This document shows positions 11,749 through 34,993 of a stretch of DNA of 34,993 bases, one piece after another; position 1 is the first letter of the stretch, and every line of letters starts with the position of its first letter. Under the pieces are notes generated by a model that was given only the letters and a program-made list of their open reading frames with translations, had not been told where the DNA came from and searched no databases. This DNA comes from a virus: positions 1-34,993 of IMG/VR virus record IMGVR_UViG_3300048041_000047. The stretch is one strand, 5' to 3'. The position numbers and the translations under genes are program-made.

Positions 11749-14343
11749 TTAAAAATTCGGTGCGACGTGGGGGTTAATATATCCTACAGTGAGTATGTTT
11801 CCCGTCCCAGTCGCGCTGGTGACTTTATAGCTTACCTGACTTGACGTGTTTGTGGTAGTGGCGACATTCGCTACCGCGTTTGTAGACGCCGCTTCGACGT
11901 ACAGGGAAACGTCATACGGCCCCGCCGAGAACCCCGGATAGAGAAACGCCGTATCACCTTTTATGGTCGTGCCGTTCAAACTAAAAATCACGATTGGGTA
12001 GGTCACAAACCCAAGCGGAGTGGTAAGCGTCGTCGCAGTGATCGAAGAGGCCGCGCCGGTGGCGAGATCCGTGACACTCGTCCCCCAATAGAATTTTTGT
12101 CCGTACTGAAAGAACGTCATAATCGCACCCGTGCCCGTCGTACGAATGCTGCCGACGTACCTAAACGCAGTAGTGCCGGCGGGCTTGTTCGCCGCCGTAG
12201 CCGAGGTGTCAAGGTATACATCATACGAGCCGGACACCATTACCGCAAACACGTGGTACCACGTGTTGTTGGCTACCGCCGTCCCAAAAAGTCCACAATT
12301 GCCCGTTCCGGCTACAAAAGCGTTGCTGCTCGACGTGCAGCTCGCCCCGCTGACTTGCTTCGTAAAAGCCGTGCCGGTAATCATTACCGCGTTGGTTGAG
12401 TCGGCGGCGTAGCCCGCGGCCACGTCTATGACGGATGACGGAGCCGTCCCGTCGTTCGACAGGCCGAACCCTCCGATGTAGCCATTGACGACGCTTGCAC
12501 CGCCGGCACTGCCGTTCGCCGCCGCCGTAATCAACCCCTTGGCGTTGACCGTGATGTTCGCATTCGTGTAGCTGCCTACATTGCCGTTGACCGTCGCCAG
12601 TGTCGTTGCCACGGCTCCGGCTGAGGTAGTCACATCGCCGGTCAGGGCGGGCATCTGCGCCGCAGCCAACGTGCCGCTGTTGACCTCGGAAGCGGCAATC
12701 GACTTCCCGGTTAGCGTCTGCGTTGCGGCAATCGTGCAAATCGTGTCCGTCGCGGCGGGGAAGGTAAGCGTGTAATTTGTGGCGCTGCCATTGGCCGATG
12801 TAAAAGTCGTAGCACCCGTAGACGAACCGAGCAGCAACAAATCGCTGTTGGTGAAGGTTTTTGCCGCCGTGAAGGTCTGCGCCACACCAAGGCCATCGAG
12901 AGTTGTTGTAGCGCCCGGCAGGGTGTAGGTGTATGCGCCGGGGACAGTAAAGCCCCAATTAAAAGCGCCGGTCGTCGCCAGGTTGCCCGCCAGGGAAAGG
13001 GTGCCGGTCGTGAATGGCACCGAACTTGCCGCCTCATTGCCGAGCGTTCCCCCGTTATTGTAGAGGAGGTAGGCTGTCGTACCGCTCCCAACCGTGGTCG
13101 TCCCAACCGTGACCGACCCCGCCGAAGCTGCGGCAATTGAGGTATTGCAGCCGAATCCCGTATTGGTCGTCCACGTTACCGCGCTGCCTGCGGTAGAACA
13201 CGAAGTCATCGTTAAGGCGGTCGGAGAAGCCGTCGCATTCGTAGCGTTCCCCAAAACGGTGTTTGTTGTTTGCGTAGCGAGATCAGCCAATGTGACCAAC
13301 CCCGTAGCCGCAAAAGAACCCGTGATAGTCGGCCCTGAAATAGACGGCGAGGTAGCAAGAACGGGGCTTCCGCTCCCCGTTACGGCGTTACCCAACCCGG
13401 TGGCCACGCCTGTGCCGAGTCCACTCACGCCCGTACTGATCGGCAAACCTGTGCCGTTCGCCAGATTGATCGAGGATGGCGTGCCGCCCGCGCCGCCCGG
13501 CGCAACATAGTCCGTCCCCGAAGTAGCCGTCACGAAAGGCCCGGTACCTGCGCCTTTCACGATCCCGGATATGCTTCCCACGCCCGTACCGCCGAACGGC
13601 ACCGTGTTCAGCGCGACACCCGCCGTAGCCTGCCCCTTTGCGTTGACTGTCACCTGTGCGTACGTCCCCGCCGTCACGCCCGTGGGTGCGATTGTCGTCG
13701 CGTTTCCGACGCTCGTAACGTCCCCGGTCAAGTTCGCATTCGTGGTCACAGTGGCCGCGTTGCCGGTTGTATTCTGGTTCAGCGTCGGGATATCCGTGGC
13801 GGCGATTTGACGCATCAATGGTGTGCCTGTAGCGCCGGCCGGGGATGCCAGGAAGTAGGCTTGCGATTGCGCGGCGAACACGCAGGCAACCGTACCGCTG
13901 GACGTGACCGGGCTACCGGTGCAGGAAAATGCCGAGGGCATCGTCACGCCGACGCTCGATACCCCGTTAGTGATTCCGTACCCGGAAAGCGTGGTCGGTG
14001 TACCGGTAACCCCGGACCACGGCACCGACCCGGCCTGAAATGTATTCGTGCTGGCGTTCAGCGTCCCAAGGATGTCCCACACCGCGCCATCGAACACGTT
14101 CCACACGTAGGGAGTCGCGGTCGTGTTAAGCCACTGCTGGCCGAGTAGAGGCGTGGCGGGCGCGGTTGTGCCAGCGTTGATCTGGATCAGACTATTGATG
14201 TCGCTGGCTGTGGCGGCAAAGTTCCCCCGAATCGGTGCGGATTGTAGCGGCGAGTTCGCGACGGGGATTGTCGGGTTGACCGTCGAACCGGCGGCCAATG
14301 CCAGCCCAGACATCAGCGCGAGTAAGTATGCAAGCTTTTTCAT
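11749..14343 (-). CDS. Long tail fibre-like protein with signal peptide
   Basis: The 864-residue protein begins MKKLAYLLALMSGLALAAG, a canonical Sec signal peptide. Next comes a module with N-P-T-I-P-V-x-N-S-P-L-Q-S-A-P-I-R-G-N-F (about 22-41), seen at the front of phage fibre proteins. The body is Thr/Ala/Gly-rich with fibre repeats such as V-N-A-K-G-x-x-T-A-x (two clear copies, about 229-238 and 604-614) and G-T-G-P-F-V-T-A. The last 200 residues have three Cys (in CTSSSNAF...GNCG) and look globular. It is placed inside the baseplate cluster, away from the other two fibre genes. Export of a virion fibre would be unusual, so it may act outside the virion or the N-terminus may be used otherwise. 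Confidence 0.72.
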   Translation of the reverse strand: MKKLAYLLALMSGLALAAGSTVNPTIPVANSPLQSAPIRGNFAATASDINSLIQINAGTTAPATPLLGQQWLNTTATPYVWNVFDGAVWDILGTLNASTNTFQAGSVPWSGVTGTPTTLSGYGITNGVSSVGVTMPSAFSCTGSPVTSSGTVACVFAAQSQAYFLASPAGATGTPLMRQIAATDIPTLNQNTTGNAATVTTNANLTGDVTSVGNATTIAPTGVTAGTYAQVTVNAKGQATAGVALNTVPFGGTGVGSISGIVKGAGTGPFVTATSGTDYVAPGGAGGTPSSINLANGTGLPISTGVSGLGTGVATGLGNAVTGSGSPVLATSPSISGPTITGSFAATGLVTLADLATQTTNTVLGNATNATASPTALTMTSCSTAGSAVTWTTNTGFGCNTSIAAASAGSVTVGTTTVGSGTTAYLLYNNGGTLGNEAASSVPFTTGTLSLAGNLATTGAFNWGFTVPGAYTYTLPGATTTLDGLGVAQTFTAAKTFTNSDLLLLGSSTGATTFTSANGSATNYTLTFPAATDTICTIAATQTLTGKSIAASEVNSGTLAAAQMPALTGDVTTSAGAVATTLATVNGNVGSYTNANITVNAKGLITAAANGSAGGASVVNGYIGGFGLSNDGTAPSSVIDVAAGYAADSTNAVMITGTAFTKQVSGASCTSSSNAFVAGTGNCGLFGTAVANNTWYHVFAVMVSGSYDVYLDTSATAANKPAGTTAFRYVGSIRTTGTGAIMTFFQYGQKFYWGTSVTDLATGAASSITATTLTTPLGFVTYPIVIFSLNGTTIKGDTAFLYPGFSAGPYDVSLYVEAASTNAVANVATTTNTSSQVSYKVTSATGTGNILTVGYINPHVAPNF

Positions 14344-14344
14344 T

Positions 14345-15103
14345 TTATGGGCCTTCTGCGAAGTCTGCGGGGGTGTTGCTCGTACCGGTGACCGAGCCGA
14401 TCAAGTTGCTTGCGGACGGCACGACCGCGCCGAGCGCGTTGGATACCGAACTGCCTACCGCTGATTGTATCCCACTCCATGACGGCGTGATACCCGCCGG
14501 CGTGCCGGGCGGTAGGAAACTGTTCAATTTTGACATGAGCGAATTTGTAGCGGTTGCGGCAGCAGCTTGCGTAATAAGCGGGCGCTGGAAGTCCCATTGC
14601 CACACGGTCTGCTTCTGCTTGCTGTCGCCCGGCGTGATATCGCGAAGTCCGATCAGGATCAAATTCGTGTAAATAAACGCGGGCGTAGCATAGGTGAAAT
14701 AGCCGCCTTGCGCGATGTGATTATCTAGCGCCAGCTTGAGCGCGCTCAAGGTCGCCAGGCGAACGATCATGTCGCCGGCTTGACGCGCGGGACAGATCAT
14801 TTCCACGCTGATATTCAAGGGCTGGGAAATGATCGCGTTGGCCGCGACGGTCTGATTGGCGAACGGGTACTGCCCGATCTGGTTCGAAATCAACGTCCCC
14901 CCGGGCAACGGCTGAAACCGGGCGAAATAGGTATCCGGGTTCAGGCTGACGGTCCCCGACAGCAGCCCGTTGACGAAACTCGCCGCTTGCGTAATCGCGA
15001 GAATCGGCAACATGTTGCCCGGCATGTTCGCGGCAAGGCCTTGTACGAGCAAGATCGGCGACACTTCAAACCCGATCTGGAAAGCGGTGCGTCCGAAGCT
15101 CAT
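14345..15103 (-). CDS. Baseplate/tail-end protein of unknown family
   Basis: The 252-residue protein lies between the tape measure and the baseplate genes, where P2-type phages encode gpU and others encode a LysM-like tail-end protein. It has two halves. Residues 1-170 are ordered, with hydrophobic Gly-rich segments near the N-terminus and I-I-S-Q-P-L-N-I-S-V-E-M-I-C-P-A-R, then A-Y-T-N-L-I-L-I-G-L-R-D-I. The Ser/Ala-rich tail holds low-complexity S-x-x-S-N-A-L-G repeats. It overlaps the tape-measure stop as ATGA. It is probably the hub-proximal component contacting the tape measure; this is inferred from position. Confidence 0.6.
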   Translation of the reverse strand: MSFGRTAFQIGFEVSPILLVQGLAANMPGNMLPILAITQAASFVNGLLSGTVSLNPDTYFARFQPLPGGTLISNQIGQYPFANQTVAANAIISQPLNISVEMICPARQAGDMIVRLATLSALKLALDNHIAQGGYFTYATPAFIYTNLILIGLRDITPGDSKQKQTVWQWDFQRPLITQAAAATATNSLMSKLNSFLPPGTPAGITPSWSGIQSAVGSSVSNALGAVVPSASNLIGSVTGTSNTPADFAEGP

Positions 15104-24752: not shown

Positions 24753-26426
24753 TTAATGGCGGGTATCGCCCTTGTTAATCTGCGACACGAAGCGGCGCAC
24801 CGGCGGCTTGAACGCCGAGGTAAAGACGCTCACATCACCGATAAACTCGCTGATCTGGTGGCCGCCGGGGCTGGTACGGCGAATCTCGCGCAGTCCGCCG
24901 CCGGTGACGCTGGTCGGGCTACGCGCGGCGGTCGCGGCGTCAGCATACACTTGCCGTTCAACCACCTCCAGCGCAGCGTCAGTAATCGCTTCCAGCGGCA
25001 CGGCTTTCCAGGCGTCCGAGTATTCTTTGAACTTGCCGAGCAGACGACGACGGTACGCCGGGACGGACTCACCGATCACGGGGCCGGGGGCGCTGTCGCC
25101 GAACGCATGGGACACGGAGTCGGCGCGCATCTGGACTTCGGCGATCTTGGCGCGGTCAGCGTCCGAGAGGGTCATACTGGCGCGCAGGGAATCCACGTCG
25201 GCGCGCAATTTCTGGGCGTCCGCCTTGGCCTTTTCCAGCTCGTCGGCGTCGGCCTTTTCCTTGGCTTCCTTCTCCGCAGCTTCCGCGTCAGCTTTCGCCT
25301 TGTCCGCAGCGGTTTCCATCGCGGCGGCCGGCATCGCATCCATTTTGGCCTGCATATCGGCGATTTTCTTTTCCAGTTCGCTGCATTTTTCGGCGTCCGC
25401 CTTGGCTTTCGCTTCAAACTCGTCGGCTTTCGCCTTCATTTCTTCGGGTGTCATATCCACGGCTCCAAGGTTTTGATTGAGAACGCCGGCAGGCTCGCCG
25501 CCTTTATCCCATACGCCTAGCTCACACACTGCAAGGTGGTCCAGCAGGCTTGGCTTTCCTTCTATCAGAATCGCCGCGCCGTTGTCAAGTTCAATTGTAC
25601 TATTATCTTCGAGATTACGAAACACAACTGTAGGCGATGTGGACATTTTTTTTTCGCCCATGACCGCATTCGCGTGGTCATCATAAACTTTGGCGATGCC
25701 CCACACCTCGTCGTCCTTGATGTACGCAAGCATGATCGAACCGATAATACGGTCGGCGAACTCCTCGCTGTCGAGCGTGCGTTTCTCGGGATGCTCATAG
25801 ATAACGGACAGGCCGTTGCAGCGCGCAAGGAACTCGTCGTTCAGATAATTTTCGGGCGGCCGGTACACGAATTCATCGAGCGCCGAACGGTACGCGGTGC
25901 CCGTGCCGGTGATTCGCATCGCCCATAGCTGCATGTTGACCACGCTTTGGGGACTGTCCAGTTCGCCGGCCGCCATCAGCCGGGCGATTTCCAGCTCGTT
26001 AAGCTTGGCCGGATCGATCTGATCGAGCGCGCCCGATTGCAACGTCCAAAGCGTGTTGGGGTGCATCGGCTCGGGCAATTCCCCAAGCTTGGCCCATTTC
26101 GCCTCGGTATGCTCGTCGGATATCACCGGCTCGAAGGGCGGAACGTGGCGGGCGTATGTCGTAAAACTCACCTCGCCCGCGCTCGATGCGGCGATCTGGC
26201 GGATCGTGCCGAGGACGGCGAAACCGGTTTCCTCGAACGTTTCGCGGCGTGCTGCGGCTTCGGACAGCTCGGCGATGTGAACATGGCCGCCCGGGAAGCA
26301 CCAATGGCCGGGATAGTCGCCGCCGTCGCCACGCTTCAATAACAGGACGCGGCCGGCGGACATCAGCACGATACCGGCGCCGTTCGGGCTGTCTAGTTCG
26401 CTGTCGGCTTTGGTCGTGGTCGGCAT
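24753..26426 (-). CDS. Fused Nudix hydrolase, DUF2213-like prohead protease and scaffold
   Basis: Three parts follow each other in 557 residues. Residues about 14-130 are a Nudix hydrolase: G47-x5-E53-x7-R61-E-T-F-E65-E66-T-G-F is a complete Nudix box apart from Thr at one hydrophobic position. Residues about 165-325 resemble DUF2213 phage proteases, with Y-E-H212-P, M-S262-T-S-P-T-V and D-H297-L-A-V as candidate His-Ser-His residues. Residues about 325-435 are an Ala/Lys/Glu-rich coiled coil expected of a scaffold, then a helical tail. The protein would mature the capsid made by the genes just downstream. The substrate of the Nudix part is unknown. I used the ATG at 26426; a GTG at 26447 adds seven residues, and neither has a clear ribosome site. 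Confidence 0.82.
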   Translation of the reverse strand: MPTTTKADSELDSPNGAGIVLMSAGRVLLLKRGDGGDYPGHWCFPGGHVHIAELSEAAARRETFEETGFAVLGTIRQIAASSAGEVSFTTYARHVPPFEPVISDEHTEAKWAKLGELPEPMHPNTLWTLQSGALDQIDPAKLNELEIARLMAAGELDSPQSVVNMQLWAMRITGTGTAYRSALDEFVYRPPENYLNDEFLARCNGLSVIYEHPEKRTLDSEEFADRIIGSIMLAYIKDDEVWGIAKVYDDHANAVMGEKKMSTSPTVVFRNLEDNSTIELDNGAAILIEGKPSLLDHLAVCELGVWDKGGEPAGVLNQNLGAVDMTPEEMKAKADEFEAKAKADAEKCSELEKKIADMQAKMDAMPAAAMETAADKAKADAEAAEKEAKEKADADELEKAKADAQKLRADVDSLRASMTLSDADRAKIAEVQMRADSVSHAFGDSAPGPVIGESVPAYRRRLLGKFKEYSDAWKAVPLEAITDAALEVVERQVYADAATAARSPTSVTGGGLREIRRTSPGGHQISEFIGDVSVFTSAFKPPVRRFVSQINKGDTRH

Positions 26427-26457
26427 AGTGGCACGATAGTAACACACGGAAAAACGC

Positions 26458-30296: not shown

Positions 30297-31583
30297 TTAA
30301 AATCCGTCCGCGCCGCCCAAGCCAATAATGACGCCATAGGCGAACGCGTCGAAAAGGTCATCCGCGCGCTTGGCCGCATCCTTGTCGCCTAAGCGGTAGC
30401 CGGTGACCTGACTCATGAGGTGGTTGCGCGTTTGCCCTTTATACTCCGCAACTTTATCATACGCAAGCCCGGAAATCTTTACCTCACCGCGATAAACCGG
30501 CCCGGACGCATTCACCGCGCGTCCGTCCTTGCCCACTGCGGTGATATCGCCGGCGATAGGCTGTGCCGGCCAACCCATGCGCGCCGAGTGCTGGTTAAGC
30601 GTGATGCCCGACGCCTTGTCCTCTATGAACGCGCCTATCGAGCCGTTGCGCGCCTTGCATTCCTTCGCCAATTGCTCCAGGCGGCCAAACACATTCGGTA
30701 ACCACGTGGTTAAGAGGTCAGAGTTGATCTGTGCGATCTCCCAATCGAGAATCGTCAGCGGGTGGCCGAAATGTTTGGACAGCCCGAAATAAACCACCGC
30801 TGTGCCGTCGTTGCCGCTGCCATCCTTCATGGCGCTGTCCACCACCGCGAACACGCAATCGCAATTCATCGGGTACGGCACGCCGGCGCCATTGACGGTC
30901 AACGAGTCGGCGCTAAAGAATGCGACACCCGACCAGTCCACAAACTCCGCGAGGAACTCTTGTTTAAATACTAACGGGTGATTGTTAAGACGTTCCTTCT
31001 CCAGCTCGTCGGCCGGGACGTAGGGGTTGGTCGATGTCGGGGCGTGGAATTCTTTGAAGCCTAGTTTCGGGTCGTTGCAGAGCGCCCAGAAAAAGTTTTC
31101 CGGGTCGTCGCCGTTCGGCGTGCTGTAGACCCAGACCGAGCCGCGCGTCGTCAACAGCGTGGGCTTGATCGACTTTTGCCAGATATTGAGCATCTGACCA
31201 TTTTTGGTGAAAGCCGCTTCGTCGATCAGCACCAGGTCGTATTCGCGTCCGCGCCCGGCCAGCTCGTTGTCGTTCAAGACCCAAAAATCCAACTTGCCGA
31301 CGGCGCGATTAAACCGGGTACGGATCCGGCCGCCTTGCTTGTCGATTGAATCCTTGATCGGGTAAAGCGCCTCCCGCAGGTCGTCAAACGGCTCCGAGAG
31401 CTGTTTAAACTCGGGGGCGAAGATGCCGACGCTCTTACCCTGCGTGACGGCATTGGCGGCCTTAATCACGAGGTCTTTGGTCTTGCCCCAGCGGCGGCCG
31501 CATCGCACGACGTTGAGCCGGGTACGCGCGCGCCAGGCGGCTATTTGACCCGCGTGCGGGGTCGGCAGGTAGATATCGGGCAT
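30297..31583 (-). CDS. terL: Terminase large subunit
   Basis: The 428-residue protein has the full packaging-motor layout. Walker A is C28-G-R-R-W-G-K-T35, Walker B is Y-D-L-V-L-I-D121-E122, and the coupling segment is Y-S-T-P-N-G (153-158). The C-terminal RNase H-like nuclease has candidate metal ligands D249 (V-V-D-S), E321/D322 (F-I-E-D-K) and D409/D412 (R-A-D-D-L-F-D-A-F-A-Y-G). It drives ATP-dependent DNA packaging through the portal. A hairpin-SD element lies upstream. Length is slightly short but complete. Confidence 0.93.
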   Translation of the reverse strand: MPDIYLPTPHAGQIAAWRARTRLNVVRCGRRWGKTKDLVIKAANAVTQGKSVGIFAPEFKQLSEPFDDLREALYPIKDSIDKQGGRIRTRFNRAVGKLDFWVLNDNELAGRGREYDLVLIDEAAFTKNGQMLNIWQKSIKPTLLTTRGSVWVYSTPNGDDPENFFWALCNDPKLGFKEFHAPTSTNPYVPADELEKERLNNHPLVFKQEFLAEFVDWSGVAFFSADSLTVNGAGVPYPMNCDCVFAVVDSAMKDGSGNDGTAVVYFGLSKHFGHPLTILDWEIAQINSDLLTTWLPNVFGRLEQLAKECKARNGSIGAFIEDKASGITLNQHSARMGWPAQPIAGDITAVGKDGRAVNASGPVYRGEVKISGLAYDKVAEYKGQTRNHLMSQVTGYRLGDKDAAKRADDLFDAFAYGVIIGLGGADGF

Positions 31584-31616: not shown

Positions 31617-32030
31617 TCAATCGACGGGGAATCCCCCATGTATTTTTAAGTCGCCGTCGCCGGGCTTTGTCTCTTCCAGCACGGGGCGGTCGCCGTAGTC
31701 ACGCGGGGCGATGGCTTTGGCGCGCCATCTATAGTGGTGCGCGATCTCGCGGGCCTTCTCCAATTCAAACTTGTTGGTCGCCTCGGCGATGCCCTTTTCG
31801 GCCAGCTCGTCCCATGCCGCCGCCGCCTTAATTCTTGCGACTCGGGCGCGCGCGGATCGCTCCGGGTCACTCTCGATCCACCGCAAAAGTGACGAGCGCG
31901 AAATGCTATATGCCTCGGCGATACGGATATAGGTGTTCCCGTCGAGCAGGAGATCACACACCAGATCGATGCCGCCGACATCTAACAATTCGTGGGGTTT
32001 GCGTTGCATAGTAGCCACATCATAGGGCAT
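31617..32030 (-). CDS. terS: Terminase small subunit
   Basis: The 137-residue protein has an N-terminal helix-turn-helix (L-V-C-D-L-L-L-D-G-N-T-Y-I-R-I-A-E-A-Y-S-I-S-R-S-S-L-L-R-W). A helical middle follows with E-L-A-E-K-G-I-A-E-A, then H-H-Y-R-W-R-A-K-A-I-A-P-R-D-Y-G-D-R, a pattern shared by many phage TerS proteins. It recognises the packaging start on DNA. Two starts are possible, ATG at 32030 or ATG at 32009 (MQRKPHELL); neither has a good ribosome site. The gene begins beside the inverted-repeat control region. Confidence 0.82.
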   Translation of the reverse strand: MPYDVATMQRKPHELLDVGGIDLVCDLLLDGNTYIRIAEAYSISRSSLLRWIESDPERSARARVARIKAAAAWDELAEKGIAEATNKFELEKAREIAHHYRWRAKAIAPRDYGDRPVLEETKPGDGDLKIHGGFPVD

Positions 32031-32056
32031 TCGTAGCGTTTGAGCAATACGCGGCA

Positions 32057-32231
32057 GACGGCAGACGGCAGACGGCAGAGGCCTTTCTATACCGGGCTAC
32101 CCTGTATTATTTACAGTTTTATTTTATATATTATATTTGTTTAAAAACTCTTGCGCATAAATAAAATGTATATATAATTAATCCTACTGACGCCGGTATG
32201 GAAAAGCCTCTGCCGTCTGCCGTCTGCCGTC
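32057..32231. repeat. 39-bp inverted repeat around AT-rich core, divergent control region
   Basis: Arms 32057-32095 and 32193-32231 match at 37 of 39 positions when one is reverse-complemented. Each arm contains three tandem 7-mers (GGCAGAC, last copy GGCAGAG) followed by a 15-base unique part ending in ACCGG. The 97-bp core between them is about 23% GC by hand count, against a GC-rich genome. It separates leftward terS from the rightward small genes, and no gene lies in it. It may be a promoter region, origin or packaging site. Confidence 0.85.
32151..32178 (+). promoter_or_regulatory. Possible promoter in AT-rich core
   Basis: TATAAT (32173-32178) preceded after 16 bases by TTGCGC (32151-32156). 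The -10 is perfect but the -35 is poor. Transcription from here would put the right repeat arm in the leader of the next gene. Confidence 0.4.
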
Positions 32232-32246
32232 AAAAATGGGGGAAAT

Positions 32247-32585
32247 ATGGGAAATCGGGACGAAGCGCTGCTAAAAGGCGAGAAGTTTTACAGCTCGGGG
32301 ATTCCGTGCCGACGTGGCCACCAGGCCGACCGGTATACGTCTAGCGGAAACTGCGTGGCGTGCGTGGCGCTCTCAGCCAGTGTGATGAAGGCGAAACGAG
32401 ATTTCGGGATTCAGACAAAGCGCGGGAATCCCCTGCTCTTCGCTACCACGCTCCCTGAGCCGGCCCACCTCGTATTCCGGGGGTTGCGCGACTTGATCGT
32501 AGCGGTTCACCCGGATCGACAGGGCGAGATCCTGGACTGCCTCACGGGGGTTTTGGAGGGATTTAAATCTAATCTATCGGCGTAA
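32247..32585 (+). CDS. Small zinc-binding phage protein (C-x3-H / C-x2-C)
   Basis: The 112-residue protein carries Y-S-S-G-I-P-C21-R-R-G-H25-x10-C36-V-A-C39. This is a zinc motif found at the front of some phage HNH endonucleases and in stand-alone small proteins. There is no HNH core behind it; the rest (about 45-112) is helical with L-V-F-R-G-L-R-D-L-I. GGGGGA lies upstream of the ATG. It is the first rightward gene after the inverted-repeat region, so an early DNA- or RNA-binding role is plausible. Confidence 0.72.
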   Translation: MGNRDEALLKGEKFYSSGIPCRRGHQADRYTSSGNCVACVALSASVMKAKRDFGIQTKRGNPLLFATTLPEPAHLVFRGLRDLIVAVHPDRQGEILDCLTGVLEGFKSNLSA

Positions 32586-32603: not shown

Positions 32604-32631
32604 TTGACATTGCGCCCAATGGGCGTATACT
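32604..32631 (+). promoter_or_regulatory. Strong sigma70-like promoter with palindromic spacer
   Basis: TTGACA (32604-32609), 16-base spacer, TATACT (32626-32631). The 13-bp perfect palindrome CGCCCA-A-TGGGCG (32613-32625) fills the spacer and abuts the -10, so it is a candidate operator. The promoter lies about 55 bases before the ATG at 32689. Confidence 0.78.
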
Positions 32632-32688: not shown

Positions 32689-33039
32689 ATGGCGCTAGAC
32701 CAAAATTTCTACCCTTCATGGGCTGGATCTAATCCGATCCACGAAGTCCGCGACTGGTCTAAAGTGCGCTCCCTGATCCGCTCCGCACGCCGTGGCGACA
32801 CGATCCCCGCAATTCTAATTGACGGTCAAGAGGGTAGCGGCAACATGCTAAATGGCACTCATCGCGCCGCAGCTAACTGCATCATGCGTAAGCTGCATGA
32901 TGAGCGTGCAGCATGGGACGCGGCAGAGCCAAATTACATCCCTCATGTATTTTTTAACTACGACGAAGCGCCCGCCGATCTCGCCGAAGCAGTACAAAAT
33001 GGGGACTATGAGCGCATCGATGAAATAGTGGACAGGTAA
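32689..33039 (+). CDS. ParB/sulfiredoxin-fold-like small protein
   Basis: The 116-residue protein contains I-P-A-I-L-I-D-G-Q (about 39-47) and then N-G-T-H58-R59-A-A-A-N. This pair of motifs is typical of ParB/Srx-like domains (strand, Asp-Gly, then G-x-H-R-A-A). No HTH follows, unlike true ParB. The acidic C-terminus (DLAEAVQNGDYERIDEIVD) is helical. GGAG lies upstream of the ATG, behind the strong promoter. Possible roles are nucleotide-binding or nuclease-like; not determined. Confidence 0.65.
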   Translation: MALDQNFYPSWAGSNPIHEVRDWSKVRSLIRSARRGDTIPAILIDGQEGSGNMLNGTHRAAANCIMRKLHDERAAWDAAEPNYIPHVFFNYDEAPADLAEAVQNGDYERIDEIVDR

Positions 33040-33041
33040 AA

Positions 33042-33260
33042 ATGAACCACCCCAACCGTGTCCCACAAGGGCCACAATCCAATCCGAGTGCAGCCGCAAT
33101 ACGCGCCGCGCGCGAGTCTGCGCAGCTATCCCAAACCGATGCCGCCGCGCTGATCCATGCGAGCCTGGGCGCATGGCAAAAATGGGAGCAGGGTGATAGG
33201 CGTATGCATCCCGCGTTTTGGGAGCTATTCCGCATCAAGACGGAATTCGTCACCGTTTAG
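33042..33260 (+). CDS. Short Xre-like helix-turn-helix protein
   Basis: The 72-residue protein has A-A-R-E-S-A-Q-L-S-Q-T-D-A-A-A-L-I-H (about 22-39), then A-W-Q-K-W-E-Q-G-D-R-R-M-H-P-A-F-W-E-L-F. This matches a frequent class of very short phage Xre-type proteins with the W-E-x-G-x-R-x-M signature. It sits two bases after the ParB-like gene. It could act on the palindromic operators nearby. Its end overlaps the convergent primase gene by 36 bp. Confidence 0.75.
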   Translation: MNHPNRVPQGPQSNPSAAAIRAARESAQLSQTDAAALIHASLGAWQKWEQGDRRMHPAFWELFRIKTEFVTV

Positions 33261-34993
33261 CGGTAAAGCATTTCGGAGCTGCGCCGATTCGTATTCTCGC
33301 GCAAGGTCTGGCGCCGTTTGACCCCGCTTGACGTAAAGAATGGACCGGGTAGCGTCCGGCATCACATCGCGCCCCGTTCGCCCCGCTTGGTCGTACCCGA
33401 GCCGTTCCAGCGCCTCTTTAATCTTGAGCCGGGATACTTTCTTGTCCAGCGTGCGGCGTAACATGGTCACACTGGCGAAGCCGCCCCGGAAGCCGGGCGT
33501 GTGCGTTTCGATCAGCTCGGAGATATCCTCTTCCAGCATCGTCATGCTCGACTCGATCGCCAGCGTTGTAGAGCTAGTCGCGGGGGCTTCGGTACACGTC
33601 TCGGCGGGGTTGTATCGCGGGTCGATGCTGCCGTGGTGCAGGTAGTAGGCGACCGCTTCGAACCCCCCGGACTGGAGCCACGGGTAATAGACTTTGGCGA
33701 ACCAGGCAGGCGTCAGGCCGTCGGCGTCGCGCTGGTCTTTATTCTGCTGGGCGCAGAAGAGCGGGCATATACGGCGGTCGTCCGGCGTCTTGCGGATGCC
33801 GTCCTGATGGTTGTCCATGAAGAAGAAATTTCCGCAAATATTTTTCTGTACCGAGTCGATGCCCTTGTAGGTAACGGCGTGCTCCCGCTCCGTGATCATC
33901 GACTTTAACGCTTCGAATACACCGGCCCGGTCCGTGTAGGTGTAAATGTCGTCGCCGACGTACAGCACGTTATTTTCCAGCCACCCGTTGAAATTCCCGT
34001 CGATCATGTACGGCTTGACATTAAAGATGTACTTCCGGCCCAATGCATAACGCAGGCATTGAATGATCGTGCTTTTCCCGTTGCCCGGCACGCCTTGCAA
34101 GAACACGGTCCAGTCGAATTTGACGCCGGGATACTGCACGATGGCTTTCAGAAAGGCGTCGAGAATTAACCAGTCGTCGCCATGCGGGAGCAGGGTGCGG
34201 ATCAATTTGATGAACGGCGCCACATCGCTATTACACATTTGCACCACGGGTTTCTTATACACGTTGACCCAGGTCCGCCCGCTCTCCTCAATCATGGATT
34301 GAAAAGGCAGGTCCGGCCGGAAACACGTGCCTTGCGCGCGGGGCAGAATTACGACGGCGTTTTGCAGGAAGGCGTCCCAGGCTATTTTAACCGTGCGCTC
34401 GTTCTGCGCATCCATGCAAAATAGTTTGCCGGGGTAGGCGGCGTTGAATCTCGGCTGGTCTACTAGGTCCCCATTCTTGAGCAGGATGGCGTTGTTGTCT
34501 TGCACATACACGCAGCCTTCGAAGAAGTCGGCCAGATCGACGGCGAAGATGACCGGGCCGAATTTCTTCCCTTCTTTTTCGGTTGCCAAGGATGGAAGGG
34601 TCTTCTCTTTGTCCACACACACCGCCCGTACCACGCTCGCGGCCGCCAGGATCGTGCGCTCCAGGTAGTCCACCTCACGCGCGTCCCATTTCTCACGCGC
34701 CAGCGCCGAGCGGAGCATGAGCTGCTTTGTGCGCTCGCAGTTCTTGCCGGTCCAGAAGAGCAATTGCGACGCCAGCGCGCTATCGGCTTCGGACGCGCCG
34801 TAGGCCTCTTGACTATTCGGGTCGGGCGGGTAGGTAGTGGCCAGCACGTCGGCATTGGCCTGCCAAAGGTCGGCGAACGCGGCCTTGCCGTTGAACGCGG
34901 ATCCGGCCGACTGTGAGCGTAATGCGCGGCGTATCAACTCGTCATCGTCGGTCGGCCCGCGCCATTCGGGCAGCGGCTCGGTCGTCCAGCCGG
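33225..34993 (-). CDS. D5-like primase/helicase (SF3), 5' end outside window
   Basis: The frame is open to the right edge. The visible 588 residues begin with P-E-W-R-G-P-T-D-D-D-E-L-I-R-R-A-L, a conserved hinge in phage primase-helicases, so the apparent TTG at 34937 is not the start and the primase part lies outside. The helicase half has Walker A G-V-P-G-N-G-K-S-T (34073-34099), Walker B-like V-L-Y-V-G-D-D, and K-S-M-I-T-E-R-E-H-A-V-T-Y-K-G followed by a Phe-rich strand and N-H-Q-D (motif C-like Asn). An SF3 helicase unwinds phage DNA at replication. The C-terminus (about 470-540) has an HTH-like stretch. Confidence 0.9.
   Translation of the reverse strand, partial: GWTTEPLPEWRGPTDDDELIRRALRSQSAGSAFNGKAAFADLWQANADVLATTYPPDPNSQEAYGASEADSALASQLLFWTGKNCERTKQLMLRSALAREKWDAREVDYLERTILAAASVVRAVCVDKEKTLPSLATEKEGKKFGPVIFAVDLADFFEGCVYVQDNNAILLKNGDLVDQPRFNAAYPGKLFCMDAQNERTVKIAWDAFLQNAVVILPRAQGTCFRPDLPFQSMIEESGRTWVNVYKKPVVQMCNSDVAPFIKLIRTLLPHGDDWLILDAFLKAIVQYPGVKFDWTVFLQGVPGNGKSTIIQCLRYALGRKYIFNVKPYMIDGNFNGWLENNVLYVGDDIYTYTDRAGVFEALKSMITEREHAVTYKGIDSVQKNICGNFFFMDNHQDGIRKTPDDRRICPLFCAQQNKDQRDADGLTPAWFAKVYYPWLQSGGFEAVAYYLHHGSIDPRYNPAETCTEAPATSSTTLAIESSMTMLEEDISELIETHTPGFRGGFASVTMLRRTLDKKVSRLKIKEALERLGYDQAGRTGRDVMPDATRSILYVKRGQTAPDLAREYESAQLRNALPLNGDEFRLDAE

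Follow-up and report, generated by a model that had tools for sequence, protein, structure and literature searches.

A mirrored repeat element at the divergence beside terS of a phage genome: a candidate divergent control region with counterparts of unrelated sequence in other phages

What does the long mirrored repeat do that separates the terS gene from the small rightward genes of this virus? The window, i.e., the whole stretch of 34,993 nucleotides analyzed here, is a viral contig in which the element is present as a single copy. An earlier note had described a 39-bp inverted repeat with 7-bp iterons and a core of about 23% GC, located at the divergence of the packaging/head operon and the small rightward genes. 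Both descriptions hold: 37 of the 39 positions in one arm are mirrored in the other, each arm has three heptamers, the 97-bp core has 22.7% GC, and terS flanks the element on one side (minus strand) and the 32247-32585 ORF on the other (plus strand) (Table 1). Read from the outside in, each arm is composed of GGCAGAC-GGCAGAC-GGCAGAG-GCYTTTCYATACCGG, i.e., two GGCAGAC heptamers and one GGCAGAG, and an extra fourth heptamer on the left side (GGCAGAC at 32053-32059) reaches beyond the 39-bp arm. The arm pair is by far the strongest inverted repeat of the window and far above chance, with a score of 33 versus 14 for the next unrelated repeat (ungapped scoring of the whole 35-kb window). The complementarity runs weakly on into the core (75-nt arms at 77%), which may be explained by its AT-richness.

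Table 1. Coordinates of the mirrored element and of the genes around it in the window.
Feature	Position	Strand	Basis or remark
terL	30297..31583	-	phrog_2, E 1e-27
terS, Sf6-like small terminase heading the leftward operon	31617..32030	-	PF20901 Sf6_terminase, E 6e-9; phrog_1482
Left heptamer array	32053..32080	+	GGCAGAC x3 + GGCAGAG, first copy beyond the 39-bp arm
Left mirrored arm, 39 bp	32057..32095	+	37/39 versus the reverse complement of the right arm
AT-rich core, 97 bp, 22.7% GC	32096..32192	.	two divergent promoters presumed here; no substitution in L005/L006
CTGTATTATTTACAG, interrupted palindrome	32101..32115	.	sequence; hairpin fold in the leftward leader
TATAAT, candidate -10 of the leftward (terS/late) promoter	32130..32135	-	sequence
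TATAAT, candidate -10 of the rightward promoter	32173..32178	+	weak -35 TTGCGC at 32151-32156, 16-bp spacer
Right mirrored arm, 39 bp	32193..32231	-	37/39 versus the left arm
Right heptamer array, GGCAGAG + GGCAGAC x2	32208..32228	-	sequence
112-aa protein (orf112), Zn-ribbon-like C..GH..RY...C..C motif	32247..32585	+	phrog_1081; similar genes beside the element in relatives
116-aa ORF (ORF116), ParB-like motif seen by eye	32689..33039	+	no family match
72-aa HTH_31 (Cro-like) protein (HTH72)	33042..33260	+	PF13560, E 2e-7
DUF5906/NrS-1-like primase-helicase, 5' end cut by the window	33225..34991	-	PF19263, PF22763

The element lies between two divergently oriented first genes, terS and orf112, and the approximately 216 bp that separate them offer space for both promoters. 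Each strand of the core carries a perfect TATAAT, a coincidence that 25% of such cores would show by chance alone, and strict -35/-10 pairs were found on the plus strand only. The palindrome CTGTATTATTTACAG is a possible operator or leader hairpin. The earlier note had also proposed that both mRNAs start with the same leader, through which one protein or RNA could control both. Since relatives keep mirrored arms at this junction (see below), both 5' leaders would indeed have sequence in common, provided that the core holds both promoters, but a role at the RNA level is not supported, the two leaders folding no better than shuffled sequences; RNA leader structure was rejected as the basis of the element. 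In nutL/nutR of lambda and putL/putR of HK022, one regulator recognizes similar sequences that a pair of divergently transcribed RNAs carry in their leaders; these sequences serve early operons and form RNA hairpins. The window would share with these systems the likeness of the leader sequences and differs from them in having no leader hairpin beyond shuffles. Further to the right, a strong sigma-70-like promoter match (TTGACA-16-TATACT, 11/12) is found at 32604-32631, ahead of the 116-aa ORF.

In 2.9 million viral contigs and a genome collection of 84,980 species, exact scans with the 22-base inner-arm pattern yielded no match outside the lineage of this phage. Neither dispersed copies nor a target-site duplication were found, the pattern being confined to the lineage with one copy in the record, and a MITE or dispersed repeat was rejected. 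The heptamer array alone is not specific, since period-7 tandem GGCAGAC arrays are also present in unrelated plasmids; taken alone, it could be a slippage microsatellite. The view that the whole element is a mobile or decaying repeat with no role, either a MITE-like insertion or a heptamer microsatellite made by slippage, can appeal to these plasmid arrays and to the arrangement of terminal inverted repeats around an AT core. We regard it as very improbable, given the restriction of the inner-arm pattern to one lineage, the different sequences found at the same junction in relatives, and the fact that no empty site was seen. A chance or convergent look-alike occurs at 1739-1950 of a cyanobacterial plasmid from Aulosira laxa (L028), where GGCAGAA/GGCAGAC heptamers are followed about 180 bp further by inverted TTCTGCC heptamers. 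Freshwater TerL relatives, most of them from one clade, carry period-7 and period-14 arrays of other units clustered upstream of terS; in the freshwater TerL relatives L008, L063, L065, L083, and L089, non-coding regions of about 900 bp upstream of terL contain, in both orientations, degenerate heptamer arrays (GCTAACA, GCTAATA) as well as ATGACAATTTGACC boxes.

Within the lineage, two contigs (L003 and L004) are essentially identical to the window at the element, and two others (L005 and L006) are 97-98% identical. In the latter two, the outer iterons alternate between GGCAGAC and GGCACAC. The L005 contig has these variants in both arms, which are more alike than those of the window, a T replacing the window's C in GCCTTTC. 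Thus, the mirroring of arm changes that the earlier note had asked for in relatives is found in kind, but not position by position. The unchanged core of L005 and L006 is only suggestive, because divergence is locally uneven (1.4% in terS, 9.6% in orf112): substitutions are few, and a nearby recombination boundary could mimic conservation. Position 1 of the L006 contig falls inside the right heptamer array, where the assembly broke at the repeats. Flipping would be favored by inverted arms that are long and identical and enclose a short core, and it would also keep the arms alike, so that the core might be an invertible promoter, with recombination between the arms choosing the active operon. 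However, the near-identical contigs compared (the window, L005, and L006, and likewise the more distant L196 and L197) show a single core orientation, and no recombinase was identified beside the element; the probability that we assign to a switch of this kind is very small.

A search via the neighboring DUF5906/NrS-1-like primase gave 43 further loci outside the lineage, which were thus not selected for repeats. A strong inverted repeat was present in 10 distinct loci, and 9 of these lie at or near the early/late divergence, where the late/terminase operon faces away from a leftward accessory gene that often encodes a Zn-ribbon-like motif. The arms match at 49/49 bp around a 91-bp core (25% GC) in L196/L197, at 25/25 bp around a 63-bp core (21% GC) in L198, at 20/20 bp around 23 bp in L199, and at 40/40 bp around 100 bp in L215, and they measure 21-28 bp, several being made of short direct repeats, in L208, L214, L206, L238, and L223/L236. 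When local composition was preserved, none of 60 shuffles reached the arms of L198, L199, or L206, and the short arms of L210 and L222 were also beyond all shuffles. Many other primase-related loci showed nothing significant at their largest divergent gap in the shuffle test, and thus the layout is recurrent, not universal. The arm sequences are unrelated from phage to phage: what is conserved is the arrangement and not the sequence, and a change in one arm goes along with a change in the other.

Repeated sites on both sides of the core, as in an operator region, therefore recur in relatives, and in the window, L196, and L198 the arms sit between the core and both start codons. The mirrored variants of L005 and the unrelated mirrored arms at the same junction support a control-type element at the divergence, as the earlier note had proposed. 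A counterpoint is that perfect 49-bp arms exceed the length needed for a protein site. A core motif GCGARAGAATCT shared across junctions was rejected, showing no enrichment versus background; a shared TACC[CG][CG] box is 2.2-fold enriched at junctions, but it was picked post hoc and is missing from several of them, being only a lead.

Cultured phages carry a comparable element. In Klebsiella phage KpV52 (KX237516; L240), the terS-side junction has TACCCCG boxes in both directions flanking an AT-rich core. A second copy (302 bp, 95% identical) is located at 13985-14389, where it is flanked by a tail-side gene and by another leftward gene encoding a Zn-ribbon-like motif, the other intergenic copy being at 47225..229; both copies have a leftward gene with such a motif on one side and a rightward late gene on the other. 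This jedunavirus element resembles that of the window in its AT-rich core with flanking boxes (TACCCCG/CGGGGTA), its Zn-ribbon-like leftward gene, its rightward late gene, and its location beside terS, and differs from it in lacking long mirrored arms, in its box sequence, and in having two copies per genome. It was matched in 71 phage records of the jedunavirus type, 70 of which contain at least 80% of it; the 160 places counted include some in which the record start cuts a single element in two. It is annotated as predicted promoters at most, and we found no description of it in the open-licence literature. The likeness of the copies within a genome gives a mixed picture (95% in KpV52, 82% in IME346, and only a short stretch in common in PEAT2), and concerted evolution between the two jedunavirus copies was not retained. 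By eye, an AT core flanked on either side by box-like repeats was also seen at the comparable divergence in Edwardsiella phage MSW-3, Stenotrophomonas phage B2, and Shewanella phage SppYZU01.

These genomes bear directly on the two alternatives that the earlier note had named, a packaging site and an origin. As a packaging start (pac or cos), the box arrays would be bound by TerS beside its own gene, and TerL would cut in or near the AT-rich core. The element does adjoin terS, and boxes of the GGCAGAC type go together with the Sf6-like TerS in the window and L248 and are missing where TerS is of a different type (L196, PF03592). However, the second jedunavirus copy adjoins a tail gene about 14 kb from terS, in L199 and SppYZU01 a further gene separates the element from terS, at a distance of 0.9-1.3 kb (0.9 kb in SppYZU01, where terS comes second among the late genes, this terS call being a reading of the gene next to terL), and TerL relatives whose terS is co-directional lack the element. 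Moreover, the contig ends of relatives scatter, with no common base-exact end at the element, and a physical end there was rejected.

As a replication origin, the iterons would flank an AT-rich unwinding region and be read by the DUF5906 primase-helicase, which the anatomy fits. DUF5906 is encoded in 8/8 records with the element or box arrays and in 2/9 of the TerL relatives without it (Fisher p 0.002, although the records are related and the test is not independent), and the box type follows primase similarity (75% versus 55%). The two jedunavirus copies recall, in favor of an origin, the ori/crr pair of P4. On the other hand, the presence of DUF5906 goes along with the layout of the genome as a whole, and the cumulative GC-skew minimum falls at the other (early) divergence in KpV52, IME346, and PEAT2, a skew confounded by gene direction; SppYZU01 alone has its minimum within the element. 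The presence of two copies in jedunaviruses argues against a unique packaging site as well as against a single origin. Both alternatives are weakened by this second copy far from terS and by the distance to terS in SppYZU01 and L199, and we consider each of them unlikely, to the same degree.

A divergent control region is favored over packaging and origin because the element follows the divergence and not terS, because jedunaviruses have a second copy at another divergence, and because the arms lie between the core and both starts. Judged from sequence comparison, it seems to us slightly more probable than all other explanations together that the window contains such a region, with mirrored boxes for one phage protein and back-to-back promoters in the core. 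The promoters would drive the leftward packaging/late operon, beginning with terS, and the rightward operon of the Zn-ribbon-like protein. The arms would be arrays of short boxes (GGCAGAC heptamers plus an inner YATACCGG) for one phage-encoded protein, whose binding to both arms would switch the two directions together, the direction of control being presumptive. Box and binder would evolve as a pair, so that the box sequence would differ among phages and the two arms of one phage would stay alike, with conversion between the arms probably helping to maintain their likeness. The control, packaging, and origin functions could overlap.

Which protein might read the boxes is suggested by the phage contig L248, where GACGGCAGACGG and GACGGCACACGGCAGAC are mirrored around a 164-bp core and the GGCAGAC/GGCACAC boxes are kept. 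Its primase is 75% identical to that of the window, versus about 55% for L196 and L198, whose arms differ from the window's boxes. Its TerS is Sf6-like as in the window (57%), whereas L196 has a PF03592 TerS and no TerS like that of the window is present in L198. The TerL of L248, in contrast, reaches only 52% identity to that of the window, compared with 66% for L198. HTH72 and ORF116 are both absent from L248, and the Zn-ribbon protein of L248 matches that of the window over the motif only. HTH72 was rejected as the box binder, since it is missing in L248 with the same boxes and yet present (58%) in L196 with other arms, and so was ORF116, given that L248 lacks it. Of the genes around the junction, terS and the primase alone follow the box type; the HTH and ParB-like genes do not. 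TerS or the primase thus fit best so far as the putative reader, since L248 shares the boxes and both proteins without HTH72 and ORF116. This is one comparison, covering the 34,993 nt of the window, between genomes that are also close elsewhere (tail genes near 90%).

Divergent operator regions are of a known kind; what is unusual here is the long, nearly perfect arm symmetry at one junction despite sequence turnover. In halovirus HF2, AT-rich intergenic repeats have been shown to carry promoters, some of them two-directional (PMC8707807), but these are archaeal, dispersed single repeats without mirrored arms. Cluster K mycobacteriophages have extended start-associated sequences, i.e., 17 bp inverted repeats that enclose a spacer of variable sequence or length and are conserved ahead of particular genes (PMC3203893); unlike the window element, they occur in many copies, in one direction, next to translation starts, and with imperfectly alike arms. 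The omega heptad arrays of pSM19035 are contiguous 7-bp repeats that overlap promoters and are bound by one protein (PMC9499535); they differ in their WATCACW unit, in their 7-10 copies, and in serving plasmid partition, and no ribbon-helix-helix protein was identified at the window. No description of the window element was found in the open-licence literature. A bolder proposal, which we hold to be unlikely, is that these elements form an undescribed recurrent class in which an active process keeps the two mirrored arms identical even though their sequence turns over between phages, providing a shared leader and boxes to the divergent late and accessory mRNAs, with TerS or the primase-helicase as the reader, so that the state of packaging or replication would set late transcription in both directions.

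An arm-symmetric element at the late-gene switch that is conserved in position and variable in sequence would offer a test bed for the coupling of late transcription, packaging, and replication, and the joint change of its arms would be a model for the co-evolution of a binding protein and its sites. The group includes cultured Klebsiella, Stenotrophomonas, Shewanella, and Edwardsiella phages, and the jedunaviruses, which have cultured hosts and carry two copies in each genome, already allow such tests. Elsewhere in the window, the late operon encodes a long head-region protein with a fused NUDIX domain (24753-26447), to which the L248 phage matches over 412/564 aa only. At positions 1-179, in-frame 18-bp/54-bp tandem repeats encode a hexapeptide-type repeat (ARFGNS/AQFGNS), and the contig end there is probably an assembly break at these repeats.
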